Shown piece by piece: positions 10,257-46,490 of a DNA stretch of 64,000 bases; the first letter of the stretch is position 1; each line of letters begins with the position of its first letter. Below the pieces are notes generated by a model. That model searched no databases, had not been told where the DNA came from, and worked only from the letters and a program-made list of their open reading frames with translations. Source of the stretch: Daucus carota subsp. sativus (taxonomy: Eukaryota; Streptophyta; Magnoliopsida; Apiales; Apiaceae); NCBI RefSeq assembly GCF_001625215.2, contig NC_030387.2, positions 29,473,606 through 29,537,605 of the forward strand. The letters run 5' to 3'. The position numbers were made by a program, and so were the translations under genes.

Positions 10257-10280
10257 ATTGGCGCCGTCTGTGGGAAATTT
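10257..10280 (+). other. Primer-binding site region
   Basis: ATTGGCGCCGTCTGTGGG directly follows the 5' LTR. TGGCGCCGTCTGTGGG is the usual tRNA-primer site of plant Tat and Athila type gypsy elements. Confidence 0.75.
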
Positions 10281-10304
10281 GCCAAAGAATTACGTAGAAG
10301 AAAC

Positions 10305-13300: not shown

Positions 13301-15770
13301 GAGAGGCATAGAGGCCAGCCCAGAACAGATCAAAGCGATTCACGACCTGACTAGTCCCACCTGCATGAAGGACGTCCAGAAGTTGACAGGAAGAGTGGCT
13401 GCACTTAACAGATTCATTTCACGTTCCTCTGACAGGTGTAAACTATTTTACAACGTCCTAAGGAAAAATAAAGGATTCAACTGGACAAGTGAACATGAAG
13501 CTGCTCTCACAGAATTGAAGCAATACTTAACATCACCACCCCTCCTAGCAAAACCAGTGCAGGGAGAGGACCTCTACGTCTACCTGTCTGTCACAAGTCA
13601 TGCCGTGAGCAGTGTTCTCGTGAAAGAGGCAACTGGGGTGCAGTCACCAGTATACTACACGAGCAGAAGTCTACTCGAAGCAGAAACCAGATATACACCC
13701 CTGGAAAAGTTGGTCCTAGCGCTTGCCATGACGTCCACAAAGTTACGACACTATTTTGAGACCCACAGGATACATGTCCTGACAAACTTCCCCTTGAGGA
13801 CAGTCTTGAGTAAGCCAGAACTAACTGGTCGAATGGCGAAGTGGGCGATTCAACTTAGCACCTATGACATCATCTATGAACCACGGACTGCAATAAAGTC
13901 ACAGGCCTTGGCAGACTTTGTGGCTGATTTCAGCCCAAAGCAGATGACATTGGCAGAAGAGGAACTCAAACAATTCACGACATGTCATGACTCGCAGGCC
14001 TGGACACTCTACACTGATGGAGCATCAAATTCCTATGGCACAGGACTCGGGTTTGTGCTGAAATCGCCACAAGGGGACAACCTGGCGTATGCAATATGCT
14101 GTGACTTCAAAGCCACGAATAATGAAGCTGAATACGAGGCCCTGATAGTGGGCCTAACAACAGCAAGAGACATGAAGGTTAAAAACATTGACGTACATTG
14201 CGACTCTCTTCTAATTGTCAACCACATTAATGGCTCTTATGAAGCTAAAGATCAAAAAATGTTTACGTACCTTGACGTAGTAAAAACATTACAACTGTCC
14301 TTTAACGCATTTAGTATTCAACAGGTGCCCAGGGAACACAACGCACAAGCTGATGCATTAGCAGGACTTGGGGCTGTATTCAAAAACACGGGTATAACGT
14401 CTATCCCTATAATACACATTATGCAACCTGCAACTACAAGAATACAACAGGAACTTGTCTTGTGTACTAACAATATGCACACAGATGACGAGCCAGAATC
14501 TTGGATGCAAGCCTTCAAAAGCTATCTGCAAAACGGCTCTCTACCAGTTAGTCCCAGCGAGGCACGCGTCCTACGCATGAAGGCCTCACGTTTCGTCTTG
14601 ATCGATGGTGTACTCTTCAAAAAGTCAGTGTCAGGTCTCCTACAGAGATGCCTAAACAAGGACGAGGCCAAGATGGTTTTACGCGATGTTCACGAGGGAG
14701 AATGCGGGAACCACAGCGGAGGAAGAGCCCTGTCAAACAAGGTGATGAGGATGGGATATTACTGGCCTACCATGAGGCAGGATGCAGTCGTCTATGTTCA
14801 AAAATGCGATGCCTGCCAACGACATGCACCTGTCATCCACCAGCCGTCAGAGTACCTCCACACGACAACTCCCTCATGGCCATTCATGAAGTGGGGGATG
14901 GACATAGTCGGGAAGCTGCCCCCTGCACCAGGACAAAAGGTTTTCATGTTGGCCATGACAGACTACTTTTCCAAATGGATCGAAGCAGAGGCTTACAAAC
15001 AGGTAACTTCGAAAGAGGTGATCACCTTCATCAAAAAGAACATTCTTTGCAAGTTTGGCGTGCCCTCAGAAATTGTCTGCGATAATGGTTCCCAATTCAT
15101 CAGCGACAAGACCGAGTCATTTTGCAAAAAATACAACATCAACTTGATAAAGTCGACACCAAGATACCCACAGGCCAATGGTCAGGCCGAATCAAGCAAC
15201 AAAATCATAATCAGCAACCTGAAGAAGAGACTGACTTCACACAAAGGAAAATGGGCAGAAGAGTTACCCTGGGTCCTCTGGTCGGACAGGACGACACCAA
15301 AAACTTCAACCGGGCAAACACCCTTCAGCCTAGTGTATGGCGCAGAAGCAGTCCTCCCCACAGAGGTCCTGACCCCCACTGCGAGGTATGGACTGCTGAA
15401 TGAAGAGACAAATCAAGACGAACTGACTGCTGATATTGACACTGTGGATGAGTTGAGGCAAATGGCTAAGCTACGAATGGCAACCTATCAACAGAAAATA
15501 GCAAGAAACTACAACAAACATGTCCACCTTCGGATGTTCCGAGTAGGTGACATGGTGCTGAGGAAGACGTTTCAAAACACCACTGACCCGACAGCAGGAA
15601 AATTTGCTGACACCTGGGAATTAAGGCCCCTACTTAGTGGACGCTGTGGTCGGAAAGGGAGCATACCGACTATCAACTTTAGATGGCACTCCCGTCCCAA
15701 GAAGCTGGAATGCCACCCACCTGAAGTTTTACCATGTTTGATCAATGTCTTTCTAGTATCGAGTTCATGA
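10305..15770 (+). CDS. gag-pol polyprotein of the Tat-type gypsy element
   Basis: Single open frame of about 1,821 aa. The open frame extends upstream into the LTR, but the first ATG after the primer site is at 10,305. Domains in order: gag core (about 11,050-11,230), a C-x2-H-x4-H-x4-C knuckle typical of this lineage (about 11,680), aspartic protease (DNGSAAN, about 12,075), reverse transcriptase with YIDD (about 13,140), a first RNase H-like domain, a second RNase H (TDGASNSYG, about 14,015), then integrase with an HHCC-type zinc site (about 14,690) and a DDE core (about 14,900-15,190). The double RNase H arrangement is known from Tat elements. It looks whole. Confidence 0.92.
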
Positions 15771-23304: not shown

Positions 23305-23313
23305 TATTTGTAA
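23305..23313. other. Left target-site duplicate of the MULE (TATTTGTAA)
   Basis: Identical to 31,965-31,973 on the other side. A 9-bp duplication is the hallmark of Mutator-like elements. Confidence 0.92.
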
Positions 23314-23510
23314 GGGTCCAGGTCCCCAGCAACCGGTTGCTGGGGGACCTTTAACCAACACACCCCTCGCGAGCCGTCCGATGGCGAGATCAATGGCCAC
23401 GATTTAAAAACAGTCCAGCGCTTTTTTACCGCTGGACGACTAACGTCCAGCGCTAAAAAACCGCTGGACGAGTGACTATTTTCTAGCCGTCCAGCGCTAA
23501 AAAAGCGCTG
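23314..23510. repeat. MULE left terminal inverted repeat (197 bp)
   Basis: Pairs with 31,768-31,964 with only a few mismatches. It contains CGTCCGATGGCGAGATC, then three or four short palindromes of the CCAGCGCTTTTTTAGCGCTGG type, each able to form a small hairpin. The opening CCAGCAACCGGTTGCTGG is itself palindromic. Confidence 0.92.
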
Positions 23511-23519
23511 GAAACACAG

Positions 23520-24296
23520 AGAACTATAAATCGATAGTGATAATTCAAAACTCATTACAAACGCCCCAACCAACCACAGCTGATATCAGAGCAACATCCG
23601 GCAACGAGATTCCTCACCACTACAGCTACACGAACTGCTCACCCCCACGAGATTACAACACATCCAGCTTGATTATCAGGACTGTTTATCAGGACCCCCA
23701 CGGGATCAGTCATGTAAGAAAGGTAAACACACGATTGTCTGCAATGTGTTTGATGAAATGCCACAGTGAACAAATTGTTTTTAATTTAAGAACTGGGTTG
23801 ATTAGTCGATTTATAGCATTCAATATAGTATTTGGGGATGAATGAGATGTACATTGTTGTTTAAAATTCTTTATTTATAGCCATGACAGCCAACTGCTTG
23901 CTGAAATGCTCTGTGTTAGTGCAAAATACAGAGAATTTTTGTTGGCATCTTCTGACTGAAATTCAGTTTTCTGTTGCTGACTGAAATATATGTGATTGGT
24001 ATATAGTCTATGTTGCTGACTGAAATTCAGTTTTCTGTGCTTGGTGAAAATATGTGTAAAATTCTTTATTTTGCGAATGGTCTATGTTTGGCTTGGGTAA
24101 ATCAACTTACATTATACTGCTGTTTGATTATAGTATTTGTGGAATTTGCGAATGCTCTGTGTGTATTTGTTGAATCATATTTGGTATAGATGTTTATGTG
24201 ATTAAGCGTTTTTGTGCAAGTCTTTCATTGATTAAGTCTTGTATGTCTGTGAACTTGAATACTTTGTAATCATACTTTTGTTTGGGAACTGCAGAG
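23520..24296 (+). promoter_or_regulatory. Probable leader and 5' intron of the mobile domain-Ulp1 gene
   Basis: Non-coding sequence between the left repeat and the first ATG. It ends in a good acceptor (GGAACTGCAG) only two bases before ATG, and a possible donor (AAGGTAAAC) lies near 23,722. A leader intron of about 570 bp is likely. The promoter should then lie in or next to the terminal repeat. This is inferred from splice-site look-alikes. Confidence 0.4.
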
Positions 24297-27192
24297 ATGG
24301 AGGACATATTGCCTGGACCGAGCAGTCGGGTGGTTATCACTGACAATGCTTACCATGTCAGTGATAATGTATGGAGAGGTACAGATAGGGGGCCTCTAGA
24401 GTGCTTTGGTGCGAGCCGTCTACTTCATATTTGGGTTCTGTCTGAGGCACAGAAGGAGTTGTTGCACGCCGTGGGATTCGGACTGTTTGCTAACCAGGAT
24501 GTGGGGGTACAGAATGACACGGCATTAGTCTCTGCACTCGTGGAGCGGTGGAGGCCTGAGACCAACACCTTCTTCATGCGCCAGGGTGAGATGACTATTA
24601 CTCTCCAGGATGTGGGTTATATTCTGGGCCTGCCTATTGTTGGGCAAGCCTTGGGAGGGCCAGCCATACAGTGCCCGGGGTCGTGGTTTCGAAGATTTTG
24701 GTTCGAGCCACTGAGTGATGCAGATTATGAGGCTGGTTGGAATAAGTCAGGCATCAAGTTCACCTGGCTTCATCATAGATATGGACGGGCAGGTGTGGAG
24801 GGTGACCCTGAGCGGATTGCAATTCACACGCAGGCTTACCTTATGCTGGTTCTTGGGGCTGTTCTGTTCCCTACGAGGAGTAGGAGTGTTGTTCACCCGA
24901 GGTACATTGGGCTCCTTCGTGATATTTCACAGATTCATACGTACTCCTGGGGTTCTGGTGTCTTGGCATATCTGTACAGGGCTTTGGGGATGGCTGTCAG
25001 GAAGGATAACACACACATTGCCGGTTGCATGCTGCTACTTCAGATTTGGAGTTATGAGCGGTTTGATATCGGGTTGCCTTGTCCTTTTCCTCAGGCTGTG
25101 AGATTTCCAGCTGCGCTATATTGGGCTTATCCGAAGACGAAGAGTGTTCTACTGGAGGAAGCTGGAAAGGCAGAAGAGGTTGTGGTGAAGCCGGTGCTTG
25201 GGAAGCGGCGCCGGGGTTCTAAGGGTCCTCATCACAACTTGCCACACTATAGGGCTGAGTTTGATGGAGTCGGGTCTGATCGAGTGAGGTGGACACCTTA
25301 TGATGAGGAGCCACAGGAGGTTGATGAGGATGAGGATGAGCCCCCTGTGATTCCACATCTTGATTGGGATCAGATTGAGGCCCAGTTTGCCGGACAGTCC
25401 AGGCTTCCACTTCTCTGCTTCGACATTTGTGAGTTCCAGCACTCTGACAGGGTTTTGAGGCAATTTGGGTTGAGGCCGTGCATTCCGAGGCCACCTGTAG
25501 ACATGACTGCGTATAGGAAGCCGAAGCAGAGATTCCATGCAGAGAATTGGATGGCTGTGTGGTTCGCAGAGATTGGGAGGTGGAGGCGCTTTTGTGACAG
25601 GCCTGACATAGCCCTCTGTGATGATTTAGGATACACTTCAGAGGCTGCGTACATGGATTAGTACATGGAGGTGTCTAGGAGGCGAGTGGGGAAGCCAAGG
25701 CCCAAGCCTCAATCAGATTATTCGAGTCGTGAGTTGTTTGACAACTACGAGGCCTTCCAGCTTGTAAGTGTTTAGTTATCTCAAGTTCTTGCAATTACTG
25801 TATTATTCGTTTGGTACATCCATGTTGTATTGACTTTTGTTTATTTGCAGATTGAGGCAGGTATGGACCTAGTAAGGCAGTTGGATGCGCGTATGCCTTC
25901 TAGTTTTGTCCCCGACTTTCGACAACTTGCACCTAAGTTTGTCGACCGATACACTCGCTTCATGAAGACTGTTAAGGGGCCGGGCTTCACCCCTCCAGTC
26001 TTCGAGCATCTAGATCGGGCAGACTTCTCTGGGACAGGATTGGCAGGTGTGGCTGAGCAGGACATCATTCCCATGACTCAGCCTTCGCAGCATATCCCTG
26101 AACAGCCAGCATCTTCGTCCCGTCCAGACAAGCTGGCACTTGTTAGTCTGAGGAAGGGGAAATGGAAGATGAACAAGCCCCTTTCTCCCACAAAGCAAGA
26201 TACAATAGCTACAGAATGGGGTTGGAAAGATGGTGTGGTGAAGTTACACGGGGGGGTGAAGAATGCATTGTACGAGTTGAAGCCTGTCAATTTGCTTACA
26301 CTGGCTCCGGGATCTTGGATAGATGACCGGATTATTTATGCGTATATGGTACGTTCCTAGACCTCTATGTGTATTCCGTTTTGAATTCAAAACAATTATG
26401 TTACGTGTGTTAAGTAATGTGGTTTCCAAACATATTTCTGCTTACTAACTCTGTTCATGCCACAGATGTTGTTAAGTGATAGGGAGGAGGAAATTGCTAG
26501 GCTTCATGATAGGAAGCCAACGTACTTTTTTATGGATCCATTCTTCATTCCCCTTGCGAAGACGAAGAATTGGAAGAACCCCGAGTCCTACGTGAAGTTG
26601 CATAACTTCTACTGCGATTATGGAAGTGCTGAAGTGGGGCCGACGATCAACAAAGTTGATTTCATCTTCCTCCCGACTTGCGTAGAGGAGAATCACTGGA
26701 TTCTATTTGTCTTCTCCGTGAAGACATGGGGCGTTGTCATATTGGATCCTTTATATGATGACTCAAGTTACCCGGAGGAGGAAGAGATAGTGGTACGTAT
26801 ACACTTAATGCACCCACTTATGTCATTATTGAATATGTTTTCGAGTATGTTTATAATTAGTACTGACTTGTTTAAACATATTTCAGACGGAGATGTTGCC
26901 CGATTTGATTAGATTCTGCGAGAGGCGGCAAGAGGTTTTTCCAGAGGGCCCGGCTCAAATTAGTGCCTTGATGAGAAGGCCAAAGCAAAGCAACCACACT
27001 GACTGCGGTATTTTTGTCATGAAGTATATGGACTATATGTTGCAAGGATTCCATTTACAGTCAATGACTTGGACGAGTTCTGATGTTGAGACTTTCCGGT
27101 ATAGGATTGCGAAGGAGATTCAAAGGGGAAAAGCAAGAATGATCCCGGGGTTCCTCATGAAGCAAAGGCTGGAGAATGCTTCTAGGGCTTAG
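24297..27192 (+). pseudogene. Plant mobile domain (PMD) - Ulp1/C48 protease fusion gene of the MULE, with one in-frame stop
   Basis: Four exons, all joined in phase 0: 24,297-25,763, 25,851-26,348, 26,466-26,792 and 26,887-27,192, with donors GTAAGT or GTACGT and CAG acceptors; about 865 codons. Exon 1 holds a plant mobile domain (LVSALVERWRPET..F....GEMTITLQDVGYILGLPI; later YLYRALG and QIWSYERFDIGLP), as in MAIN/MAIL1. Exons 3-4 hold a Ulp1/C48 peptidase with all catalytic residues: His in ENHW, Asp in LDPL, Gln in KQSNHTDC and Cys in DCGIF. A TAG at 25,659-25,661 (codon 455) interrupts exon 1, but the same frame stays open through the donor, so the stop looks recent. Expected role: removal of SUMO-like modifiers, perhaps countering host silencing of the element (inference). 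A TTG-initiated extension upstream is unlikely. Confidence 0.8.
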
Positions 27193-27555
27193 TTGTAGGA
27201 ATAATTTTGTACTTAGAACTTGAATTCTATTGCCTTTTGTAGAACCTCGTTCAGTTATCTATATAATGCAACCTTCATTTATATCGGTTGTTTAATAACC
27301 GTGTCCTATTCCCTTCCCCGAAATTCTGTTGTGATTATTCTTGTTAATTATTGGTTTTGATTTTGGATTGAGTTTTAGTTTTGATTTTGGTTTGAGTTTC
27401 ATTTTTCAAGTTTCTATTATGATTTTGGATTGAGTTTTAGTTATGATTTTGGATTGACTTTCATTTTTCAAGTTTGAAGTTTCAAGTTTCAGTTATAGTT
27501 ATGATTTTGGATTGTGTTTTGGTTGGTTTTGGTTTACAGGAGGCATGACAAAAAC
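27193..27555. other. Non-coding spacer with GATTTTGGATTGAG repeats
   Basis: Downstream of the Ulp1 half. About 27,350-27,530 consists of degenerate tandem copies of a TTATGATTTTGGATTGAGTT unit. It probably contains the 3' untranslated region and poly-A signals of the fusion gene. Confidence 0.5.
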
Positions 27556-27725
27556 AGGGGAGATATGGCCAAAATTGTTCCTGTGTTTCCAGCGCTTTTT
27601 AAGCGCTGGACACAAAAAACACTCCCAGACGTCCAGCGGTTTTTAAGCGCTGGACGGCTGAGAGTGTTTTTTGTGTCCAGCGCTTAAAAAGCGCTGGAAA
27701 CACAGGGACCATTTTGGCTCCCCTA
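27556..27725. repeat. Central palindrome of the MULE (170 bp)
   Basis: The left arm from AGGGGAG and the right arm ending CTCCCCT pair over about 80 bp each around a centre near 27,642. The arms carry TGTGTTTCCAGCGC, the same block found at the inner edge of the terminal repeats (TTCCAGCGCTTTTTTAGCGC and GGAAACACAGAGAA). It lies exactly between the converging gene sets, so it may act as a two-way transcript end or as an internal copy of the terminal structure (inference). Confidence 0.85.
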
Positions 27726-27946
27726 ACCTGTTTTTTGCCCATTTTGGTACCATGGAAACCTGTTTTTTGCACCATTACTCCAAAATCATGAAAATTCATA
27801 AAATTTGTATTAAACTTCTAAAAATTCATATAATTTAATACATATTAGGAAATTAGGCAATTCTTACAAATTCATACAAAATAAGAAATTCTTACAAATT
27901 CATAGAAATTAATAAATTCTTACAAATTCATACAAATTCATACAAA
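27726..27946. other. AT-rich spacer with short tandem repeats
   Basis: Repeats of AAATTCATACAAATT and TTCTTACAAATTCATA just downstream of the OB-fold gene on the minus strand; probably its 3' region. Confidence 0.5.
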
Positions 27947-28852
27947 TTAATTGAAAATCCCTAGAATATTGGAGTGGCCAATGGAAAGTTTATGGTGAGG
28001 GGTTTCATCCATGCTAATGAAACAAGTCGCTTCATACAACACCAAAACACTTCCCTCGCGAACCTCTCCCGTCGTGATCATTGGATGATCTTTCGTGTCA
28101 TCACCAAGCGAAACTTGAATAGACTCGGACCCGTCATACAATCTAAACTTTGCAAGAAGAAACGGATTAGGCTTATCATCAAGATTGTCCGTTTGCAAAT
28201 TATGTACGAACCCCTTCACATATGCGATACGAAATTGATCTTTTTGGAAACGTGTCTCGCGGGGTCTCAAATTGTTTATCTCAGCAATTCGCTCGACATT
28301 GACAAGTTCGCCTCCATCCCAAGGACGTAGCACAAAACGCTTGTCTCTGTCCAAAGCGTCTGCTCCCAAAAGCCTAATGTGAATGAAATACGGTGGCGGG
28401 CATCTCCTCGCCTTTGCCTCCATTTCTCCACTTGCAAACCATCCACACGCTTCACTCCATCTCCTCTCCCTTTCAATTTCTTCCTCCATAGGGTACAAGT
28501 TGAAATCTTCTTCTTCAACTACGGGAGCATCTATAAAGAACCCGTTTGCATACGATGGACAATCTAATGCCTCCATTTCTCCACTAGCAACCCATTCACG
28601 GGGTTCAATTTCTTCCTCCATAGGATCTAAGTTAAAATCATCTTCTTCAACTACGGGAGCATCAATCAAGAATCCATTTGCATACGATGGACCATCTAAC
28701 GGCAACCGGTCAATAATGTCAAGCATCTCATTGTCCGACGGGGTGGACCAAGAACGGAACCAACTTTCACTAAGAGCCTCCTCCGAGGGTGAAAGCGAAT
28801 CACTAACATGAGTAACTGTGTCACTACTGTCAGATTGGTGGCCATTTTCCAT
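27947..28852 (-). CDS. Possible RPA1-like OB-fold protein with internal duplication (MULE accessory gene)
   Basis: 301-aa frame from ATG at 28,852 (MENGHQSDSS). Residues about 45-140 contain a tandem repeat of some 45 aa (PSYANGFLIDAPVVEE... then PSYANGFFIDAPVVEE..., each followed by NL.PMEEEIE), acidic and perhaps a protein-binding module. The C-terminal 110 residues (FRLYDGSESIQVSLGD ... GEVREGSVLVLYEATCFI ... LSIGHSNILG) fit the pattern of the RPA1 N-terminal OB-fold (R..LSDG...ML.....V..G.L..GS...L....C....I.I..LEVL). A TTTGTAG acceptor lies just before the ATG, so it may be spliced from a leader starting further right. It lies 218 bp downstream of the transposase on the same strand. OB-fold membership is inferred from pattern only. 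Confidence 0.55.
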   Translation of the reverse strand: MENGHQSDSSDTVTHVSDSLSPSEEALSESWFRSWSTPSDNEMLDIIDRLPLDGPSYANGFLIDAPVVEEDDFNLDPMEEEIEPREWVASGEMEALDCPSYANGFFIDAPVVEEEDFNLYPMEEEIERERRWSEACGWFASGEMEAKARRCPPPYFIHIRLLGADALDRDKRFVLRPWDGGELVNVERIAEINNLRPRETRFQKDQFRIAYVKGFVHNLQTDNLDDKPNPFLLAKFRLYDGSESIQVSLGDDTKDHPMITTGEVREGSVLVLYEATCFISMDETPHHKLSIGHSNILGIFN

Positions 28853-29069
28853 TTTTCACCTACAAATAAATATGAAATAAAATCATAAAAAATCACTTTA
28901 AATCACATAAAATCATACGAAATGACATCATATAAAATCACATAAAATCACATAAATATGAAATAAAATCATATAAAATCACATAAAATGACATAAAATC
29001 CTATAAAAATCACCTCAAAAAATTACATCTAAGAACTCTTATTTTGGTCTCCAAATTTTTTGCAAGTCC
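28853..29069. other. Spacer between transposase and OB-fold genes
   Basis: Low-complexity repeats of ATAAAATCAC. It may hold the transposase poly-A region or a leader intron for the OB-fold gene. Confidence 0.4.
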
Positions 29070-31511
29070 TTATATCATGGCTTCTTCATGACATTGCTTG
29101 CATTTTCTCTTTTTCTTACTAAGGCCTTCAATTGGATTTTTGAAACGTTGTGGCTTCTTCCTACCCTTCGTTTGAGACACTATAGGATCAAGTACCGGCT
29201 CGTTCAACTCGTCACCAATATTCTCTTCAATGGGATTCTCAGTATTTGAATTAGGAGCAGCATCAACATCATCAACAGCCATTTTATCAAGATTTGCAAT
29301 TTCTCGATTCATCACCTCTAAGGCATACTCATATCTTTCTTTCGAAACCATGCTGCTATGACAAAAACTCATTGTTAACAAAGTCATATGGTTGAATCTT
29401 TGACTTGGTGTCAATTCTGTAGATGTTGGATCATCGCAACCCATAGCATAAGGTAGCATACCATCTACCCTATTAGCATCTCTAGTCCAACGACGTTGAA
29501 TAAATGTTACTGGAATTTGGGCAACATTTTTCTTGTTTAAAACGGCAATGATGTGTCGACACGGGATTCCTAAATGTTCATACATCCGACACACACATCT
29601 TCCTGTTAGGGCCACTTTGTTGAATTTCACTTCATACATTGTTCTTTTCTCGACTTCGGTCAGGGGTCTAAAACACCTATAATGTGTGACTTCATCCCCT
29701 AACGTCAACTGTTCTTTATCCTTCTCGACAAAGTATTTAGAGGCTTCCACCAATTGAACTTGAAATTGGCGAAACATCTCCTTGGTATACATGGAAGCCC
29801 CGTCTTGTTCCAAAGCCGTCTTCAACCTCAAGTAACGGGTTTTATTCTTCGTGTCATTGTCCTCCTCCTTCTCCCGCATAAATTGTCTTTCAATTGCTTT
29901 TTGTGCATTCTCAACAAATTGCTTCAATCCTGTACTAGAACTAACATAGCTATCAAAGAATGCATTCATTCCCTCGCTCCTCGATGTCGTGGTCTGACCC
30001 GCAGAGAATGTACTCTTAGTATAGGCCGAGACCCATTTCTCCTTCAACAAATACAATCCTTGCAACCATGAATGATCTTTCAAATCATACTTCACCACTA
30101 AATCTTTCCACCTCTCCTCAAAAATATCCTCCGTCAATGAATGGTATATGCATTTGTTGAAATCTACTTTGAATGTTCCCGGATGCTTAATATAAAGGGT
30201 GTTCAATTTTTCGGGGAACTTCTGGCTTATATGCCAAGAACACAACAAATGTCGGGTTTGGGGTAGTATGGATGCAATTGCCCCCGCCATAGCTTGATCT
30301 TGGTCCGTGATTATAGCGTTCGGGTGTTTATCGCCAACCGCTTCAAGCCATGTTCTTAGCACCCATTCAAAACTACTTTTTACTTCATCCCTCATGAGTG
30401 CAAATCCAAAAAGAACAGATTGGTAATGATGATTGACCCCTGTAAAAGGCACAAATGGCATGGCATACCTATTCGTTCGGTATGTCGTATCAAAAGCAAC
30501 AACATCTCCAAAATTACTATAGGCCATCAAACATTTAGGATCCACCCATACTAGATTTTTCAAACGGTTTTCTCCATCCACTTGAGTTTTCACAAAAAAA
30601 TTCCCACCGCCTTCCTCTTTAAGACGACTTAACAAATCCAAACCCGCTTGAGCATCACTCACTTGTATCTTTTTCTTCCGCTCATCCCGCACCACATTCC
30701 TAATATTTTGGCTACCAAAACCAACATTACTCACTCCACCTTGCATATTGCTAAAAAGACTCATGGTTTGGCTAGGGCGAATACCCGACACATTTAACAC
30801 ATTTATAAGATTTCTTGCCGCACTCGTCACATGTCTTTCCCGTTGAATCAAAGTCATCTTACTAGGAGATACAAGATCATGATTGTGTTCTAATTCAACG
30901 GTTGTCAACTCCCAATAATCTTTTTTCTTCTTTTTCACAACAAACATCCTAACCTTATAACCACTTCTAGGAAGTTTATCCCGACGACGTGTGCCCTTAC
31001 TACTGCCTACACATACTTCTTCATCCACAGGGTTTTTGTCTTGATTTTCACCCGCGAGTCTGCAAACAAACATTCGGGTATATATTTCATCAACTTTTGC
31101 CCGTTTCTTTGTTTGTTGTATTTTCACACCAAACCCATTCTTAAGGGCATATGACCTAATAAATCTATCCGCGTCATCTAAATTATCAAATCTCTGATTC
31201 AAATACGGGACTTCCATATTTTTATTTCTTTCATTCTCATCATCAAATTTATTATCCACTCCTTTATCATCACTCTCTACGTTCTCATCAACCTCATCAT
31301 CACCACTAACAACATTTCGATCATCAATACAATCTTCATCAACACTAACATATTCTTTATCATCAACATTTTCATCATCTTTTAAATCAATAAACACACG
31401 ATCCACAACACTATCAACCTTAACAACATCATCTACATCTACGTAATCATTATTATCAACTTTTTTTACTCTTTTTCTTGGAACAAAATCCTCAAACAAA
31501 GAATCCGCCAT
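29070..31511 (-). CDS. FAR1/FHY3-type MULE transposase, intact
   Basis: Open frame of about 813 aa. An upstream ATG at 31,547 would add a hydrophobic MFACFVCVVVVI stretch, so ATG 31,511 (MADSLFEDF) is preferred. An acidic N-terminus (residues 20-100, Asp/Val-rich) is followed by a FAR1-type WRKY-GCM1 DNA-binding domain (about 105-225), then the MULE transposase core with D in AFDTTYRTN, D in IITDQDQAM and a likely E in SRSEGMNAFF, and a SWIM zinc finger (CVC...GIPCRHIIAVL, about 650-690). Residues conserved in active elements are kept and no break is seen. It is single-exon, on the minus strand, transcribed away from the right terminal repeat, which probably carries its promoter. FAR1-related host regulators share this plan, but its position inside matched inverted repeats makes it the element's own transposase. 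Confidence 0.9.
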   Translation of the reverse strand: MADSLFEDFVPRKRVKKVDNNDYVDVDDVVKVDSVVDRVFIDLKDDENVDDKEYVSVDEDCIDDRNVVSGDDEVDENVESDDKGVDNKFDDENERNKNMEVPYLNQRFDNLDDADRFIRSYALKNGFGVKIQQTKKRAKVDEIYTRMFVCRLAGENQDKNPVDEEVCVGSSKGTRRRDKLPRSGYKVRMFVVKKKKKDYWELTTVELEHNHDLVSPSKMTLIQRERHVTSAARNLINVLNVSGIRPSQTMSLFSNMQGGVSNVGFGSQNIRNVVRDERKKKIQVSDAQAGLDLLSRLKEEGGGNFFVKTQVDGENRLKNLVWVDPKCLMAYSNFGDVVAFDTTYRTNRYAMPFVPFTGVNHHYQSVLFGFALMRDEVKSSFEWVLRTWLEAVGDKHPNAIITDQDQAMAGAIASILPQTRHLLCSWHISQKFPEKLNTLYIKHPGTFKVDFNKCIYHSLTEDIFEERWKDLVVKYDLKDHSWLQGLYLLKEKWVSAYTKSTFSAGQTTTSRSEGMNAFFDSYVSSSTGLKQFVENAQKAIERQFMREKEEDNDTKNKTRYLRLKTALEQDGASMYTKEMFRQFQVQLVEASKYFVEKDKEQLTLGDEVTHYRCFRPLTEVEKRTMYEVKFNKVALTGRCVCRMYEHLGIPCRHIIAVLNKKNVAQIPVTFIQRRWTRDANRVDGMLPYAMGCDDPTSTELTPSQRFNHMTLLTMSFCHSSMVSKERYEYALEVMNREIANLDKMAVDDVDAAPNSNTENPIEENIGDELNEPVLDPIVSQTKGRKKPQRFKNPIEGLSKKKRKCKQCHEEAMI

Positions 31512-31767
31512 AATAACAACAACAACACAAACGAAGCAAGCAAACAACTAGATTAGAGTTAGAAATTACCACAATCTTGAGTATGCACTTGCTTCTTTAG
31601 CTCCAAAGAGTATGCACTTACCACAAACCCTAGCTCTCCAAATGTTTAAGCTCCTCGATTTTTTTTGTAACACTAACCTAAAGTGACCTAGTACGTGAGT
31701 ATATGATCATTTCTCTGTGTTTCCAGCGCTTTTTTAGCGCTAGACAAGTCAAAATATCAAACTACTA

Positions 31768-31964
31768 CAGCGCTTTTTTAGCGCTGGACGGCTAGAAAAT
31801 AGTCACTCGTCCAGCGGTTTTTTAGCGCTGGACGTTAGTCGTCCAGCGGTAAAAAAGCGCTGGACGGTTTTTAAATCGTGGCCGTTGATCTCGCCATCGG
31901 ACGGCTCGCGATGGGTGTGTTGGTTAAAGGTCCCCCAGCAACCGGTTGCTGGGGACCTGGACCC
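31768..31964. repeat. MULE right terminal inverted repeat (197 bp)
   Basis: Mirror of 23,314-23,510. Inside it (about 31,712-31,767) lies an extra palindrome-containing stretch starting TTCTCTGTGTTTCCAGCGC, partly repeating the inner edge of the left repeat. Confidence 0.92.
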
Positions 31965-31973
31965 TATTTGTAA
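31965..31973. other. Right target-site duplicate of the MULE (TATTTGTAA)
   Basis: Identical to 23,305-23,313. The host sequence continues with several copies of a TTGTAAATATACTA-type motif. Confidence 0.92.
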
Positions 31974-32642: not shown

Positions 32643-33645
32643 TAGGGATTTATAAACCGGATATCCGATTTTTCGGATCACTAAATTTCTATTCCGGTTC
32701 CGGTTTAACCGGATATCCGAAAATCGGATCGGAAAACGGATTATCCGGATCATTTTTTTCTCAAAGGATATCATGTATTACTTCCGGATTTAACATCCCT
32801 CCTTTGCACAAGTATAAAACGAAACTCTCTGAGAGTGAAAGACTGCGGGTACAAACTCGAAACCACGATCATCTACTCACTGATCACATGCTTACTTTAG
32901 GTGTATACAAGTAACCAAAGATACTTACTTGGGGCCGGTAGGCTAATGGTTCTGGGTTTTTTAAGTCTTGAAGACTTGAAGTAGTCTTGAAAGTGAAAGA
33001 CTTAAAACCTGGCTAAGAGACCTAATATAATGTAAGTATGTAATTGAATCACTCTCTGTTACAGCAAATGACTAACAAACTACAAACTCTTAGAATTCTA
33101 TTTACAAAATTAAATAATTATTATTTATTATTTATAATTTATAATACTCCCTCCGTTTCAATTTACATGTCCAGAAAAATTTATGTTTCAAATTACTTGT
33201 CCATTTCAATTTTCAATGCAAAATTATATTTCCAAAGTCAATTCTACTCTATATATCTCTTATTTATATTTCCTAGATCAATCTCACTCCACACATTTTG
33301 ATCATTTAATGCAATTAATTTGTGAACATCCACTCTTCTTAAACGGTGTGATTTTTTTAAAGTGGACATCTAATTTGAAACAGAGGGAGTGATATTCTTC
33401 TTTTTTTGCTAAATGAAGAATATTCTTTTTAATTAATAATAATGAAACCGGATCGGATCCGGATATCCGCTTTCATCTATATATATATGTGATCCGGATC
33501 CGTATCCAAATTTATAGAAAAAAAAAGGATCGGATATCCGGTCCGGTTTATGCGGATCGGATATCCAAACTTTCGGATATTTTAAATCGGATACCGGACC
33601 AGAAAATCGGATAATCTGGAATTCGATTTTTTATGCTCACCCCTA
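32643..33645. mobile_element. hAT-like non-autonomous element (1.0 kb)
   Basis: Perfect 8-bp target duplicate ATTCTATC (32,635-32,642 and 33,646-33,653). Termini are TAGGGATTTATAAA and, reverse-complemented, TAGGGGTGAGCATAAA. Both subterminal zones are packed with GGATATCCG and ATCGGAT palindromes. There is no transposase. It is nested in the pectinesterase copy 2, and a Stowaway MITE is nested in it. Confidence 0.8.
33147..33389. mobile_element. Stowaway-type (Tc1/mariner) MITE, about 243 bp
   Basis: Starts CTCCCTCCGTTTCAA after TA, and its right end reverse-complemented reads CTCCCTCTGTTTCAAATT, the classic Stowaway terminal repeat. ACATGTCCA and TGGACATCT mark the subterminal inverted repeats. 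Confidence 0.85.
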
Positions 33646-34221
33646 ATTCTATCACCTGCCCCAGCTCCCGTATTTTGATACTCCCCATAATACAATGTAT
33701 TTAGAGCAAAATTCCCATTCCACTCACAGAACCATCCGGACGGTCTGACTACATCTGTTATCGACGATTGCACTATTACTGTTCTCGAATACTCTTTCCC
33801 ATGTGGTCGTCCTAAATATGTTGGAAAGCTTCCCTGCACTGGCTTCAAATCTAACGTCGCGCCAATTCTACACTTCTGTATAACAATTCCTGCGTTTTGG
33901 TTAGGATCATCAGTTCTGTTTTGGTTAGGGCAACTTGGTCCAAAAAAGATAGAGGGTGTGCATAAATATTTATCTAATGCATGGGTTCTGAATGTTAAAG
34001 AATAGTATTTGTTAAGTGAAGTGGATGTTAATTTTGAATTTAAATTATTATGGCTCAAATCACGTTTTTGTTTGTGTCAATGATGCCTTTGTCTTGTGAT
34101 AATGCCTTGGCTTCTGGTACTTTTGGATTGTCTTAATTACATTTTGTAGTTAATTTGTTCGAAAATGAACACTATGAGATAATATCACGTGTACGATGGA
34201 CGTTTATGGATTATATATAAA

Positions 34222-35561
34222 CTAGTTGAGAAAACGCGCATTGCGGCGGCCTATAAAAATTATATTAATTAATGATTTAATATTAATATTTATAGAATAA
34301 AATAATTTTGTGGTTGTCTATAAAAAGTATATTAATAATTTAAATTAATATTTGTAGGATAAAATAAATTTTATATTATAAAAATCTTAATGTAATGCCA
34401 ATACTGATATATAAAATTGCGAAATTGGACTATAATTCATAATGGAAAAATGAAAATAAATTTTTACACATAATTAACAATTTAAATCATGACGAATCTT
34501 AATTTTATTTGTGTTTTTTTTAAGTAATCATTTTCTTACATTGTCATCTTCCTCCAATTTTTTTGGATTGATTGTGCACAAAAACATCTAACTTAAATCC
34601 TTGAGATAGCGGTCTATAACTACCCTTACTTGTAACAATCTTTTTTTTTGTCAGGGTAACAATTTTTTTTAATACTGTATAAATAGCCTTCACTTAAAAG
34701 TTGTTTGAACGTAACAAACAGATAATACATGAATAATATTTTCCTGTGTAAATCATATAAAAATTAACAACAAACATGTCCAATGAACAAAACAAATATT
34801 ATAAAAAAAATAACCAAATAAATAATATTTTTCTGCAAATATTATAAAAGAATAACCAACAAACATATATCATTGCAGAAGAACAACACACCGAGTAAGA
34901 GATCGAGCAAGAGAACTATCACCCGAGAGAGGTAGTGTTGTGGTATTGAGGGAGAGGGTGTTGTATTTAGACGATCCAAAACCCTACAACTTGGGTATTT
35001 ATGCAGAGAGACTTGTGTGCTAATCTTTCTCATGCCATAATTAAATTATCTGAAACAAAATCAGATTAAAACTTTGAAACTACTACATTCTATAAATAAA
35101 CTAAAACAAAATCAGAATCCGAAACTTGCTTCTAATATATCTGAAACTAAAAAAGGTAGTTTTAATTTTTGATATTTTTTGTGCTACTCTTTCCCATAAT
35201 TAAATAATCTGAAACAATTCCATAAATAATCTAAAACAAAATCAGAATCCGAAACTTGCTTCTAATATATCCGAAACTAAAAAAGGTAGTTCTAATTTTT
35301 GATTTTTTTGTGCTACTCTTTCCCATAATTAAATAATCTGAAACAAAATCAGATTAAAACTTTGAAACTACTATATTCCATAAATAATCTAAAACAAAAT
35401 CAGAATCTGAAACTTGCTTCTAATATATCCGAAACTAAAAAAGGTAGTCCTAATTTTTGATATTTTTCATCCAAAAATTCCAAAAAATTAGAAAAATAGA
35501 ACGGAGCGATGTGAGAGGCGCCACACGCCCCTCGCTTCTCCTTTATATAAGTAATTGATGA
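34222..35561 (-). mobile_element. Non-autonomous Helitron (1,340 bp)
   Basis: Read on the minus strand it starts TCATCAATTACTTATATAAA (5' TC) and ends with a short CGC/GCG hairpin, then TTTTCTCAACTAG (3' CTAG). It sits between host A and T without target duplication. The paralogous site at about 4,294 is empty and fixes both ends to the base. No helicase or Rep gene is present, so it would need a partner. Its interior is AT-rich and holds three tandem repeats. Confidence 0.85.
35036..35465. repeat. Tandem repeat, three units of about 130-160 bp, in the Helitron
   Basis: Units starting CATAATTAAAT.ATCTGAAAC begin at 35,036, 35,195 and 35,324 and each contains AGAATC.GAAACTTGCTTC and CTAAAAAAGGTAGT. 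The units differ by small deletions. Confidence 0.85.
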
Positions 35562-36380
35562 TTGACTATTTTGTAAAAGTGTATTTTGTTTCGATTAGCA
35601 GTCGGTGCATTGTATTCTTAATTATAGCATCTGTTCATTTGATGGTTTTGAATTCTAGAAAGATTGTACCAGAAATGTCCAAAGAAAATAAAAAATGAAC
35701 AAGTAAAACTTACCGATCAATTCTTGTTAAGTACCTCACCAATTAAAAACACTGCAAAATGATGAAGATGGTAGGTTATAGATTATAGAAAATGTAAGAT
35801 ATGTATGGTAGCTATTGATCTCTTAGAATTAATAAAAGACGCATAAATTGATCAGAATCACTAAGGGCATAGCAGATGAACTATCTGCTTAGAATCACCA
35901 TTAACAAAATAAGTTTTATTTTGAAAAAAAAATTAGGTTTACCGAATCTTGTGAAGAGCTGAGATTGAATTAAATATTGTATTAATATGGATTTGGCCGG
36001 TAATATCAATATGTACTCATTATTTATTTGACTTTGAATATTAGAGGAATTTTATACAATTACCTCGTAACTTAAATTATTTGAATTTATAAAATCAAAA
36101 CAATTAATTTTGTGGATGATGTAACTATATATATTGGGGAGGTAATCCTTACATTACAAAATTCTGGATAATATGGAAGTTTTTCCTAATAATAATTATT
36201 ACATAAAAAACATTATATGATCATGCCCAAAGGTATGTCATACTTCTGCTAAAAAGGGTTTGGGCTTGGGTTTGGCATTTGGCATATTAATAAAGAGTAC
36301 AGATATCGTGCATGTCCATATATAATTTTAATTGAAAAGAACCGACGATTGATAGAGACGGAAAGAAGCGCTAAAAAAAA

Positions 36381-38265
36381 TCACAGACCAAGAGAAAAAG
36401 GAAAAGTAGTAGAACTCAACCAAGAGGAACCGGCAATAAAGCGGGCCGGAGTAAAGCCTTGAGCCTCCGTGGCACTTGTTATGACTTTGTACCCCTTCCA
36501 CTTCACTCTCCCAGATGTGCCTGCCCCAGCTCCCGTATTTTGATACTCCCCATAATACAATGTGTTCAGAGCAAAATTCCCACTCCACTCGAACCAACCG
36601 GCCGGTCTGATTACATCTGTTATCGACGATTGCATTATTACTGTTCTCGAGTACTCTTTCCATGGTCGTCCCAAATATGTTGGAAAGCTTCCCTGCACTG
36701 GCTTCAAATCTGACGTGGCACCAATTCTACACTTCTGTATAACAATTCCTGTGTTTTGGTTAGGATCGGTTCTGCCTTGGGCGGTTAGCATGTTTTTCTG
36801 ACCAGAGTCGGGGCGACGGGCATGAATGTCGCAATCTTGTAGCACGACGGCTGCATTGCCGAAGATAAAATCTACTGTACCGCTAATGAGACAGTTGATG
36901 AAGAATTGGCGGTTGGAGTGGACGTAGAGGGTGTCTTGGTAAGCAAGTATGTCGCATTGATAGAATGCAGAAAAATCGGATCCGACACGAAGCGCCACTG
37001 CTTGGTGCTTGGATGGACCAGCGGTGTTTTGGAATGTTATGTCTCGTGCCAAGAATCTTTCCCCAACAGCAGCTGCACATATAATACACTATGCTTAATT
37101 ATTTGGATTTTAAACAATAGCTTAGTGACCTGACAAAAAAAAAATAGTTGAGGGGTCATTTGTTAAATCTGGACTCACCTACGGTAGCCGAGGTGAAGGT
37201 AGTGCTTCCATCTTTGACACTCCTACTACCTGTAATGATGGTATTAGCTCTTCCATCTCCCAAAAACATTATATTCTTCTTCTTCTTGCTCACGTCCACA
37301 TTTTCTTTGTATACTCCAGCCTTAATTCTGATCACATACCTCTTTGAACTCCCCTGCGGTGCGGCTGCCACGGCGGCTCCTACAGTCTTGTAGTCACCGC
37401 TGCCGTCAGCTGCCACCACCACATCAGGCGTTACTTTGGATGACTGAAGAAGACGCCTATCTCCTGCCGACAACCATTCAGGCCACCCGGCCTCACTAGT
37501 TTCTTGCTCCTCAAGTTTTCTCCCCTTGGCCAACATGGCTGCCTTCTCATTAGCGATATCCGTTCCAGTCATGTTACATATCATGGCCAGTGCATTGCTA
37601 CACATTTTCTCTACCTGTAATTGTCCCTTCAACAAGGCCTTTCGGACATTTTTGTCCGCGCCATCGTGCGAAAACCCATCTAGGCATGTTTCTGTGTTTG
37701 TTATGGCTGAGCTTATCAGGGTTTTGAGGTCATCAGCATGTTGTGTCAGAGACTTCTTAGTTGGATAACTTTCGAGATCACTTATGGCCTCGTGCAGCTC
37801 ATCTAGCGTCTCGTCGATCGTCTCTAGACAATCATGAAGGGCACAATTCTCACGTTTTGTCAGATGATTCCCTCTCTTGGCCATCAATTTCTCCACTTGA
37901 AAGTAATTCTTCTGGATAGCTTTGCATGTAATGTTTAACGACAGCTCGATAACATCTTTCTGGCTAGTCACCTTTTTCGACACGTCGGGATCATAATTTG
38001 CAATTGTGGAGTAGCATAGTCCCGGGTATAGCGTATTGCTACATGAGCTTCTGACCACCGCATGGGCTGCAGTAGACCTCAAATTCAGCGAAGCAGCCGA
38101 CGAACCTTGGTTGGTTCCAGACTTGTTACTCTCTCTGATTGCAATGCCGATCAGGGTAGCTACAAGTAGGAAGGATGAGAAGATGATGATGTATAGTTTT
38201 TTCTTGGTTTTGAATGTTTGTTTGATAGAATCTGACCTAGCAAAGAATTCTTTAATTCTGCTCAT
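36381..38265 (-). CDS. Pectinesterase with inhibitor pro-region (type I), two exons
   Basis: Exon 1 is 37,179-38,265 and exon 2 is 36,381-37,072. The 106-bp intron (GTGAGT...TGTGCAG) splits an Ala codon, giving 592 aa. A membrane/signal segment spans residues 24-43, a PMEI-like pro-region spans about 70-225 with four spaced cysteines, and the subtilase cleavage motif RRLL is at 270-273. The pectinesterase domain follows. All catalytic signatures are present: GVYKENV, QAVALR, YQDTLY, VDFIFG and LGRPWK. It ends with FSLGL, usual for the family. The enzyme de-esterifies cell-wall homogalacturonan after secretion, and the pro-region keeps it inactive in the Golgi (family knowledge). It is intact and is the source of the two broken copies in this window. 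Confidence 0.95.
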
Positions 38266-44400: not shown

Positions 44401-45282
44401 AAATCTAATAGATTTTATGGAATCTTGCCTCGTGAAATATGTCGTCTATCAAATCTTCACTTTCTAGATGTGTCTATTAACAGAATTTCTGGAACCATTC
44501 CTTCATGCTTCAGTAATCTTACTGCCATGGTTTTAAAAGGAAATGAAGTTGTAGAGCAAACTTATCTTCCATATTATCCCTTCGAAAATTCATCAGCGTT
44601 TGTGGGTTCACAAGAAGTAGAAAAGGCTCCAGAAGAACCTCAAAACTATAGTTATTTTGATTCTGTATTGGCAAGATGGAAAGGGCAGGAGTTTGAGTAC
44701 GGAAGAAATTTTGCTTACTTGAAGATGATTGATTTGTCAACCAATAAATTGTCTGGAGAAATTCCAATCGGGATAACTAAACTTGTAGAACTCAGGGGAC
44801 TGAACTTGTCGGGAAACTATTTTTATGGAAAGGTTCCACCTGAGATTGGCCGATTGAATGTGCTAGAATGCCTAGACTTGTCCAGAAACAATTTCTCAGG
44901 TGCAATTCCCCCAAGCATGTCTGGATTAAATTTTCTTGCCTATTTAGATCTTTCAAAAAATAACTTTTCGGGAAGAATCCCATCTGGTACTCAACTCCAG
45001 GGATTCAATATCTCCGCATATGAGCAGAATGCTGAACTCTGTGGTAAACCACTCACGAATATTTGTCCTGGAGATGAACCAGTTGATTACATCCAGCCTT
45101 CATCTGGCAAGTATGAAGTTAATGAAGAAGATGGTGAATATGAAATGTGGCTGTATATTAGTGCAGTGCTTGGTTTCGTCTCTGCATTTTGGGGCTTCAT
45201 TGGAACTTTATTGCTAAATCGTCGTTGGGGACGTGCATATTTCTTCTTTTTGGACAACTTTTTTCATAAACTAAAATTCTAA
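41483..45282 (+). pseudogene. LRR receptor-like protein RLP1, broken by an internal duplication and a stop
   Basis: ATG at 41,483 begins a signal peptide (about residues 1-25) and an LRR N-cap (RCIEAEWKALQLFKQG...W...DCCKWKGVGCDNRTGHV). LRRs of the LxxLxLxxNxLxGxIP type follow, then an island region, final LRRs, an acidic juxtamembrane segment and one membrane helix (WLYISAVLGFVSAFWGFIGTLLL) with a short basic tail and no kinase. This is the EIX/Cf receptor-like protein class, which senses apoplastic ligands through co-receptor kinases. A 687-bp piece (42,167-42,853) is repeated at 42,862-43,548 and shifts the frame, with a stop at 42,857-42,859. A second stop (TAA, 43,648-43,650) falls where the paralog has Glu in a SEAHLSNLSS context. 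It is probably non-functional unless the duplication is an assembly error. Confidence 0.9.
42167..43548 (+). repeat. 687-bp tandem duplication inside RLP1
   Basis: Copies 42,167-42,853 and 42,862-43,548 are offset by 695 bp and separated by an 8-bp filler GGGTAAGG. I see no base difference between them, and their translations are identical over 228 residues. Confidence 0.95.
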
Positions 45283-46458: not shown

Positions 46459-46490
46459 AATATTCCAAAGAAACCAGAAAATTTAGAACA

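Follow-up and report, generated by a model that had tools for sequence, protein, structure and literature searches.

The window analysed here, a stretch of 64,000 nucleotides from the carrot genome, contains a genuine MULE, a plant DNA transposon, which combines a FAR1-type transposase gene, a gene for a likely OB-fold protein, and a gene that joins a plant mobile domain (PMD) to a Ulp1-type protease. All four coding blocks, namely, the transposase, OB, PMD and Ulp1 regions, are under purifying selection in the family of this element, and the three-gene set, judging by sequence comparison with related families, is an inherited cassette rather than a one-off capture. The new aspect of this organization is the central palindrome of the element, which carries motifs of the type found at its ends; MULEs with antisense PMD genes and MULEs with Ulp1 have already been published. 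The features discussed below are the following (positions in the window).

23305..23313, no strand: target-site duplication, left copy, TATTTGTAA
23314..31964, no strand: whole element, a MULE with terminal inverted repeats (TIRs), 8651 bp, delimited by the TIRs and the duplication
23314..23510, plus strand: left TIR, with three palindromic units of about 24 bp at about 23413, 23444 and 23488
24297..25763, plus strand: PMD exon of the PMD-Ulp1 gene (Pfam PF10536, E 4.4e-60; exon reading)
25659..25661, plus strand: in-frame TAG in the PMD exon, upstream of the donor at 25764
25851..26348, plus strand: linker exon of the PMD-Ulp1 gene (exon reading)
26466..26792, plus strand: Ulp1 exon with catalytic-type His and Asp (PF02902, E 4.8e-7)
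26887..27192, plus strand: Ulp1 exon with active-site Gln and Cys, then a stop (PF02902, E 5.1e-11; SENP alignments)
27568..27718, no strand: central palindrome, located where the two gene arms converge and composed of units that also make up the TIR arrays
27947..28852, minus strand: OB-like gene, 301 aa, with the OB-like domain in the C-terminal half and a repeated stretch in the N-terminal half
29070..31511, minus strand: intronless transposase gene, FAR1-MULE-SWIM (Pfam), 813 aa, open frame
31768..31964, minus strand: right TIR, with one more palindromic unit just inside, at 31722-31745
31965..31973, no strand: target-site duplication, right copy, TATTTGTAA

The 197-bp inverted repeats and the exact 9-bp duplication described in the earlier note both hold: the TIRs are identical at 194 of 197 positions, and TATTTGTAA, present on both flanks, occurs nowhere else on the plus strand of the 64,000-nt window. 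When the flanks are joined through one copy of TATTTGTAA, the reconstructed site agrees with the flank repeat next to it at 49 of 56 positions, which is what a precise insertion should leave. A MULE transposase domain, TIRs, and a duplication that falls in the 8-11 bp class identify the element as a MULE; the 197-bp TIRs place it outside the VANDAL/KIU class of non-TIR MULEs, and the presence of a transposase places it outside the Pack-MULE class, which consists of elements with host fragments and no transposase. The transposase, previously described as intact and of the FAR1 type, is indeed encoded by one open frame of 813 aa, with Pfam matches to MULE (PF10551, E 2.6e-30), FAR1 (1.1e-12) and SWIM (8.2e-9), the FAR1 domain at the N terminus and SWIM at the C terminus being the arrangement of FAR1/Jittery-type proteins. 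Comparison of this protein with PDB sequences returned a single, chance-like match.

The PMD-Ulp1 gene presents a more complicated picture: the two domains that the earlier note had joined in one gene are present, but the gene is not intact. The PMD exon scores 204.1 bits against PF10536 (cut-off 34.9), and the Peptidase_C48 match is split over the two exons listed above; the His, Asp, Gln and Cys residues of Ulp1 are retained in all eight copies that hold those exons, the window copy included, so that in sequence this is a Ulp1/C48 protease, with an upstream stop in the window copy. The PMD frame is open to 25658, is interrupted by the TAG, and is open again up to the donor. In six of the six other aligned copies, this codon is a sense codon, the stop being confined to the window copy (n = 7). 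An intron that would hide the TAG is unlikely, considering that the frame has no other stop on either side of the TAG before a GTAAG donor, that the families denoted here F2 and F3 use the same junction, and that the six other copies have a sense codon. The window copy, therefore, should not make its protease, and the suggestion that it encodes a working one is not upheld; its transposase and OB frames are open, as is the PMD frame up to the stop. The PMD exon additionally shows a very weak similarity to DUF1985 (E 0.17, under the Pfam cut-off). DUF1985 occurs beside Ulp1 in KIU-type proteins and, given this pairing, the weak match might reflect an old link.

The third gene is likely to encode an OB-fold protein, on the strength of three lines of sequence and modelling evidence that agree although each is weak. 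The OB-like character assigned to it earlier is thus probably right, whereas its identification with the RPA70 N-terminal domain is rejected: at E values up to 1, PF04057 matches neither the window protein nor any of 13 relatives. The OB-fold profile PF01336 matches 5 of the 13 relatives (best E 2.1e-4) and HROB matches four, in both cases below the curated cut-off where one is shown; in the window protein, HROB appears at E 0.11, again below the cut-off. Among five structure models built from 13 sequences, one is good (pLDDT 81.5, the others 53 to 33), and the top fold matches of the OB-like model are mostly lysyl-tRNA synthetases, enzymes that hold an OB domain, with TM scores of 0.26-0.34 and rmsd often above 10. 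The single-sequence model of the OB domain has a pLDDT of 35; neither this domain nor its alignment A1 matched PDB sequences, and a search of viral contigs with the OB alignment produced no confirmed match.

Searching the 441-Mb host genome with the TIRs gave at least 79 matches, which were paired by eye into 13 elements; the analysis covered these pairs and, among the unpaired or weaker-scoring TIR matches, one small stretch, so that the 13 copies may be a favourable sample. Of the 12 elements with motif-found ends, 11, including the window element, have exact 9-bp duplications, and the twelfth has one mismatch; the thirteenth, in which the right terminus has decayed, has AGATAATAG on both sides, as read by eye. 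Seven of the 13 TIR-paired copies hold all coding blocks, and in the other six (c2, c4, c6, c7, c9, c11), which lack at least one block, what is missing comes from within the common gene order, so that these copies look like deletion derivatives. Three long copies, c6, c9 and c12, have 21.6, 38.2 and 32.7 kb between the TIRs, with other DNA inside. Copies devoid of the accessory genes, or accessory genes in separate nested insertions, had been named in advance as refuting the earlier reading; the six losses involve internal stretches only, and complete copies, one gene order and selection on the genes support the view that the accessory genes belong to one element. Separate nested insertions of these genes are rejected on the basis of gene order, which is the same in the copies and in related families.

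The cassette indeed extends beyond the family of the window element (F1). The convergent arrangement, with the transposase and OB genes facing the PMD-Ulp1 gene, is found at 23 of the 55 listed Ulp1 exon matches in the host genome, and families with about 60% transposase identity have it, too. The co-location analysis took in 56 of 56 transposase, 55 of 55 Ulp1, 54 of 62 OB and 71 of 123 PMD matches; those dropped are remote PMD genes and additional fragments of genes already counted, and the co-occurrence counts can therefore only be too low. An OB match follows the transposase downstream, within 3 kb and on its strand, at 12 of 17 listed own-family transposase matches and at 24 of 29 of those in the 60% class, compared to one of 10 in remote families (transposase identity 43-48%), and since these families mostly have no OB match, OB is not indispensable in all relatives. 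Relatedness between the families follows one and the same order for the different genes, with F2 and F3 closest and F4 most remote, and two exon junctions are common to F1, F2 and F3. In comparisons of the window copy with 8, 8, 10 and 10 others (c4 and c7 excluded), omega is 0.216 (95% interval 0.179-0.253) for PMD, 0.266 (0.221-0.328) for the Ulp1 region, 0.272 (0.225-0.325) for OB and 0.268 (0.237-0.303) for the transposase, with the caveats that copies of common history do not make independent pairs and that single pairs reach 0.92, 0.60, 1.05 and 1.49; a shifted-frame control on the same DNA gave 1.19-2.32. Capture of host genes by MULEs, Ulp1 included, has been published (PMC13317346), and OB and PMD-Ulp1 could in principle be passively captured pieces of host genes, as in Pack-MULEs; the omega of 0.22-0.27 in the coding frame, the inheritance of the cassette across families, and the shared exon junctions make this origin extremely improbable.

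The central palindrome, another claim of the original reading that withstood scrutiny, is self-complementary at 138 of 151 positions and holds 21-25-bp palindromic units like those at the ends of its own family. The sequence of the units differs between families, and in four of four families tested, ends and centre agree best within the family: own-family scores are 84.2, 46.4, 51.8 and 42.8 bits (F4 being compared without its right end) against a maximum of 29.2 bits in the 100 shuffles made for each family. Off-diagonal scores go up to 39.2 bits, for the F2 end against the F3 centre, followed by 31.9 and 29.2 bits, showing that the F1-F3 units are related and that the four families, accordingly, are not four independent cases. 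The palindrome could be a passive relic, left either by two adjacent MULEs whose inner ends became fused or by an old fold-back relative that inserted there, with gene conversion maintaining its similarity to the TIRs. The outer edges of the palindrome match the inner edges of the TIRs, the F1 match is limited to TIR positions of about 101-197, and a 301-bp fold-back element elsewhere (87% self-complementary) has the same units and related ends, all of which speaks for such an origin. However, an end-type array is present in the convergent gap of all four families read, although the unit sequence varies, and arm pairing is kept despite sequence change where a relic would be expected to decay. 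Co-variation between the arms involves 16 pairs changed on both sides, compared to a mean of 7.6 in shuffled data and none of 500 shuffles as high, a control that related sequences can exceed, and this co-variation may stem from gene conversion or inversion between the arms. On balance, a relic appears unlikely, without being far-fetched. With the 3' ends of the two gene arms on either side of it and a predicted RNA hairpin of -136 kcal/mol, the palindrome might alternatively serve as a two-way transcription terminator or as a hairpin source of small RNA; such a role would leave unexplained why its units best match the ends of its own family, and we consider it improbable.

The explanation that we put forward, at about even odds, is that of a TIR-MULE with an inherited three-gene cassette and three docking sites, in which PMD-Ulp1 acts against host silencing. 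The genes for the transposase and the likely nucleic-acid-binding OB-fold protein run from the right end and the PMD-Ulp1 gene from the left end, the two arms converging on the central palindrome. A DNA-binding protein that the element itself encodes, with the transposase and its FAR1 domain as first candidate, would bind the units at both ends and in the centre, creating three docking sites. PMD-Ulp1, brought to the units, might then strip SUMO-like marks from host silencing factors or displace these factors, and with their removal, the element could stay open for transcription and transposition, while the OB protein would hold single-stranded or hairpin DNA (or RNA) arising at the palindromic sites. 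The window copy, its protease lost to the stop codon, would depend on intact relatives, and intact copies exist. We infer an anti-silencing role of the cassette in this sense; the view expressed in a review that SUMO is an unlikely substrate of the Ulp-like proteins encoded by Arabidopsis transposons (PMC6117577) counts against it, and VANC provides a precedent for element-coded anti-silencing via short motifs (PMC5735166). A more specific version, namely, three-point control in which family-specific units are read by the FAR1 transposase or by PMD-Ulp1, SUMO-dependent silencing is stripped, and OB holds the hairpins, is a long shot; if true, VANC would no longer be the only sequence-specific anti-silencing system of this sort, and the second one would have been built independently.

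Instead of countering silencing, the accessory proteins might serve transposition itself, in end pairing, strand protection or target choice, like maize mudrB. Neither Ulp1 nor PMD is known to be part of any transpososome, which counts against such a function. If the OB assignment is right, the fold is one that binds nucleic acids, the OB gene lies close downstream of the transposase at the frequencies given above, and mudrB is apparently required for integration (PMC6446971); conversely, MAIN and MAIL1, which are PMD proteins, have their role in silencing by the host (PMC5418596). A role in transposition thus seems possible, if rather doubtful, and the anti-silencing cassette is retained here as the preferred reading.

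The layout of MuDR is convergent, with two gene arms starting at opposite TIRs, as in the carrot element. Ulp1-bearing MULEs have reportedly been described in melon, Arabidopsis and rice by van Leeuwen in 2007. That Ulp1-bearing MULEs and transposon PMDs were already known, as the earlier note asserted, is corroborated by the literature (PMC13317346, PMC2528002, PMC6446971), and in the literature searched, neither the full gene set nor an end-centre motif match was found. Among the closest counterparts are groups 42 and 45-50 of Dupeyron et al. 2019 (PMC6446971), MULEs with a PMD gene, in many cases antisense, which share with the carrot element the 9-bp duplications and, in many, long TIRs. 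In the compared part of the table of that paper, however, these PMD groups are listed with SWIM, CCHC or C2H2 domains, in contrast to the FAR1-type transposase here, and FAR1 appears, without PMD, in groups 1, 35 (half of one sub-group), 36 and the Phytophthora sub-group of 50; no Ulp1 or OB gene is listed in the parts compared, and the words ulp, peptidase and protease are absent from the main text. MuDR, with mudrA and mudrB (PMC6446971), has other accessory genes than the carrot element, which also differs from it in its FAR1-type transposase. KIU/Kaonashi elements resemble ours in carrying a Ulp1 domain in a MULE beside other genes (PMC13317346), as do grapevine MULE families in which Ulp1 is oriented either like the transposase or opposite to it (PMC2528002), but Arabidopsis KIU are non-TIR MULEs with VANC-type genes, whereas the carrot element has long TIRs, a transposase of the FAR1 type and a PMD-Ulp1 fusion. 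VANDAL21/Hiun with VANC is similar in combining an accessory gene with short, family-specific non-coding motifs that change between related families; there, the motifs are bound by VANC and are often tandem repeats, whereas here, they are palindromic units in the TIRs and the centre (PMC5735166). When MULEs capture genes, the outcome is in most descriptions decay (PMC13317346), whereas the PMD-Ulp1 and OB-like genes belong stably to a lineage of elements and are under selection there. It has been speculated that transposon PMDs counter PMD-mediated silencing of transposons by the host (PMC5418596); families with intact copies, in which a protease is attached to the PMD, make this idea testable, and the match between centre and ends offers a concrete binding target for such tests.

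The element described in the earlier note is one precise insertion: rejoining the flanks around a single copy of the 9-bp target duplication yields a site that shares 49 of 56 positions with the adjacent repeat, the insertion-site flank itself being a repeat of about 57 bp. The terminal inverted repeats (TIRs) and the exact duplication reported there both hold: the TIRs are identical at 194 of 197 positions, and TATTTGTAA is exact at both edges, without further occurrence on the plus strand of the window. Read by eye, the surrounding DNA holds a single 1848-aa frame resembling a Ty3/Gypsy polyprotein (10224-15770), frames like pectin methylesterase, one apparently a damaged duplicate (33582-38265), and, in translations, a cluster of receptor-like LRR frames (41483-58283) with a CC-NBS-LRR-like frame at 46491-48710. 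The coding content of the element comes to three genes, or four coding blocks, in two convergent arms:

23314-31964: MULE-type element, 8,651 bp; its TIRs span 197 bp and its 9-bp target duplication is exact
Plus strand, from the left end: exon with the plant mobile domain (PMD; match at E 4.4e-60)
25851-26348, 26466-26792 and 26887-27192, plus strand: later exons of the PMD-Ulp1 gene, with a C48/Ulp1 protease domain in two of the three
27568-27718: central palindrome, between the 3' ends of both gene arms
Minus strand, next after the transposase from the right end: OB-like gene, a 301-aa frame
Minus strand, first from the right end: transposase gene, 813 aa, intronless, with FAR1, MULE and SWIM domains

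The transposase is open throughout, as had been claimed. The PMD-Ulp1 gene, with its exon structure read from splice signals, forms one frame across the donor at 25764 and the three later exons, the sole break being an in-frame TAG at 25659-25661. The codon at that position is sense in all six other copies in which it is aligned and is missing or unaligned in the remaining six. The PMD-Ulp1 fusion thus stands for the family but not for the window copy, which, given the TAG, should make the PMD part at most.

The family (F1) was collected by searching the 441-Mb genome (11 contigs) with the left 200 bp of the element, which gave at least 79 matches; 40 of 104 candidates were scored, the better TIR matches were paired into 13 elements, and their sequences were retrieved. 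Twelve elements, the window copy included, have ends found by motif, and their 9-bp duplications are exact in 11 and carry one mismatch in the twelfth; in the thirteenth, AGATAATAG flanks a decayed terminus on both sides in a repetitive context. All 13 copies contain transposase sequence, 12 contain OB, 11 contain PMD and 8 contain the C-terminal exon of Ulp1. Counted by terminal repeats, the full gene set that the earlier note described occurs in seven copies (the window copy, c3, c5, c8, c10, c12 and c13), always in one order and with the palindrome, complete or partial, between OB and Ulp1. The other six are missing internal parts: in c2 and c4 the segment across the palindrome is gone, c7 retains transposase sequence alone, c6 and c11 are without the Ulp1 catalytic exons, and c9 is without PMD. 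Stops or gaps are frequent in the coding blocks across copies; c3 and c5 have zero in-frame stops in any counted block and a sense codon at the TAG-position junction. At its left end, c5 (C2:39874947-39885207; L034, L035) carries the transposase end once more, as an incomplete right-end copy in inverted orientation that includes transposase aa 1-391, and both of its TIRs are equally similar to the window TIR (90.9%).

The accessory genes are selected members of the family rather than passengers, as indicated by low coding-frame omega and retained Ulp1 residues. Pooled Nei-Gojobori omega for the window copy against the others (c4 and c7 left out) is 0.216 for PMD and 0.266 for the Ulp1 region (8 copies each), and 0.272 for OB and 0.268 for the transposase (10 copies each); the two shifted frames of the same DNA give 1.19-2.32. 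All-pair medians in the same order are 0.23, 0.30, 0.35 and 0.26, over non-independent pairs that singly reach 0.92, 0.60, 1.05 and 1.49. Every one of the eight copies with the Ulp1 catalytic exons, the window copy among them, retains the His, Asp, Gln and Cys residues. In most comparisons, coding parts diverge less than intergenic parts and intron 1, the exceptions being the third intron, which is not more divergent than coding sequence, and 23700-24280, which is closer than PMD in c2.

An OB fold for the third gene is likely, not proven. The window protein by itself has HROB (E 0.11) as its only Pfam match, so that the RPA70N identity (PF04057) suggested along with the OB-like pattern is unsupported; among 13 relatives scanned, PF01336 appears in five (best E 2.1e-4) and HROB in four, both below the cut-off where one was shown. 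AlphaFold2 on a 13-row alignment gave one good model (pLDDT 81.5, pTM 0.78) and four poor ones (53 to 33). With the OB model, Foldseek returned 43 PDB matches at E <= 0.001, the majority lysyl-tRNA synthetases, which contain an anticodon-binding OB domain; ExoVII, an OB domain from Thermoplasma (2k75), and chains from a PolD-Rpa2 and a nucleotide-excision-repair complex are among the rest. TM-scores are low throughout (0.26-0.34 by query), and many of the superpositions are poor, with rmsd above 10. No stand-alone host OB gene stood out among 54 OB matches compared by position: nine lack both transposase and PMD under the criteria applied, of which three adjoin an Ulp1 match and six are short (<=121 aa) or contain stops.

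The cassette, that is, the transposase and OB arm converging on the PMD-Ulp1 arm, extends beyond F1. Whole-genome searches gave at least 62 OB, 56 transposase, 123 PMD and 55 last-Ulp1-exon matches, compared by position, and the complete arrangement is found at 23 of the 55 Ulp1 matches listed: 6 in F1, 15 with Ulp1 identity of 45-63%, and 2 near relatives with an Ulp1 remnant. At 12 of 17 own-family, 24 of 29 '60%' and 1 of 10 '40%' transposase matches, OB follows downstream in the same orientation at a distance of no more than 3 kb; these counts include some pieces of one gene. Three related families were read in the same genome. F2 (L061) has TIRs identical at 230 of 231 positions and open main frames, its target duplication being not callable in an AT microsatellite; F3 (L062) has TIRs 85% alike over 212 bp and the exact duplication TAATTTGAA; F4 (L063), with a transposase at 45%, has PMD and Ulp1 and, at the position that the OB-like gene occupies in F1-F3, a short acidic open frame (about 3986-4369) without an OB match. 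Pfam agrees for the ten relative proteins scanned, a set that leaves out the F4 PMD. F2 and F3 are the closest pair for every gene, F4 is the most distant for the three blocks compared, and F1, F2 and F3 have two exon junctions in common, one following PMD and one preceding the catalytic exons of Ulp1; this common order of relatedness, together with the junctions, indicates that the cassette was inherited together. At C1:5609000-5627118, an F4 copy adjoins two F3-type transposase-OB pairs of opposite orientation, and L063 shows the start of an F3-like end near position 8941. At its C-terminus the F2 transposase (L061) has a CCHC pattern resembling a zinc knuckle (below cut-off, at E 0.023), after whose first cysteines the F1 transposase stops (window 29070-29110). 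Beside the PMD match, the PMD exons of the window (24297-25658), L061 and L062 match DUF7745 (E 0.059, 0.0017 and 4.5e-5, all below cut-off), and there is also a very weak DUF1985 match, hinting that the three domains may be distant relatives.

The central palindrome noted earlier is present, complete or partial, in 10 of 13 copies. Across eight aligned copies (two partial ones excluded), 94.5% of cells in its arms pair, and 16 pairs have changed on both sides, against 7.6 (SD 1.7) in shuffles, a count that none of the 500 shuffles reached; when the partners are slid, at most 5 remain. Its unit of about 24 bp is the TIR unit, and the convergent gaps of F2, F3 and F4 also have an array built from each family's own end unit, which is of the GTTCCGCGG type in F2, another CCGCGG type in F3 and the TACGCTATA type in F4. 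Comparing each family's end with its own centre gives top scores of 84.2, 46.4, 51.8 and 42.8 bits for F1-F4, compared with 17.5-39.2 against another family's centre, where the maximum comes from F2 and its sister family F3, and at most 29.2 in 100 dinucleotide shuffles per family. Several F1-F3 off-diagonal scores exceed their shuffles, so the units of these families are related; F4 is the clearest separate case, from its left end only, since another element starts on the right at about 8941. In control windows within F2 and F4, matches are limited to the centre and, in F2, the other end. The F1 unit pattern, its own reverse complement, occurs at no fewer than 200 genome places, compared with 0 for a reversed control. 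Many of the occurrences among the places listed are triplets outside F1, and L064 (C1:2919650-2920400) is a 301-bp fold-back, 87% self-complementary, with three F1-TIR-like units and related termini, so F1-type units also reside in likely non-autonomous relatives, probably a family of their own. The centre could derive from an old fold-back insertion, or from fused inner ends.

Judging from the anatomy, the most likely mode of action would be one in which the transposase binds the units, the centre and the two ends act as three docking sites, PMD-Ulp1 acts at the element on host chromatin or SUMO-marked silencers, and the OB protein handles single-stranded or hairpin DNA. The silencing aspect is proposed on the strength of the host PMD proteins MAIL1 and MAIN, reported to act in silencing by authors who speculated on anti-silencing by MULE PMDs (PMC5418596), and of VANC, for which the account cited describes element proteins lifting silencing via short motifs that differ between families (PMC5735166). 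Nearly as likely, the accessory proteins serve transposition itself; as a counter-point to SUMO-directed action, a SUMO substrate has been considered improbable for the Ulp-like proteins of Arabidopsis transposons (PMC6117577). The earlier observation is confirmed, as corrected by the stop codon; the family is well supported, and the docking-site and anti-silencing mechanism is a proposal.

PMD has been listed for several MULE groups, often antisense (PMC6446971), and Ulp1 within MULEs is already published (PMC13317346, PMC2528002). Titles, term counts and abstract openings in the open-access literature, where an in-text mention could be missed, describe no PMD-Ulp1 fusion, OB partner or central end-type array for a MULE. 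For the 297-kb region of the Amaranthus palmeri EPSPS amplicon, separate genes are described for plant-mobile-domain proteins, an Ulp1, transposases and a replication protein; an unrecognised element of this sort may lie there (PMC5240378). Thus, MULEs with PMD and MULEs with Ulp1 are known, and what appears to be new, as far as those titles, term counts and abstract openings extend, is PMD joined to Ulp1, the OB partner and the central array of end-type units.
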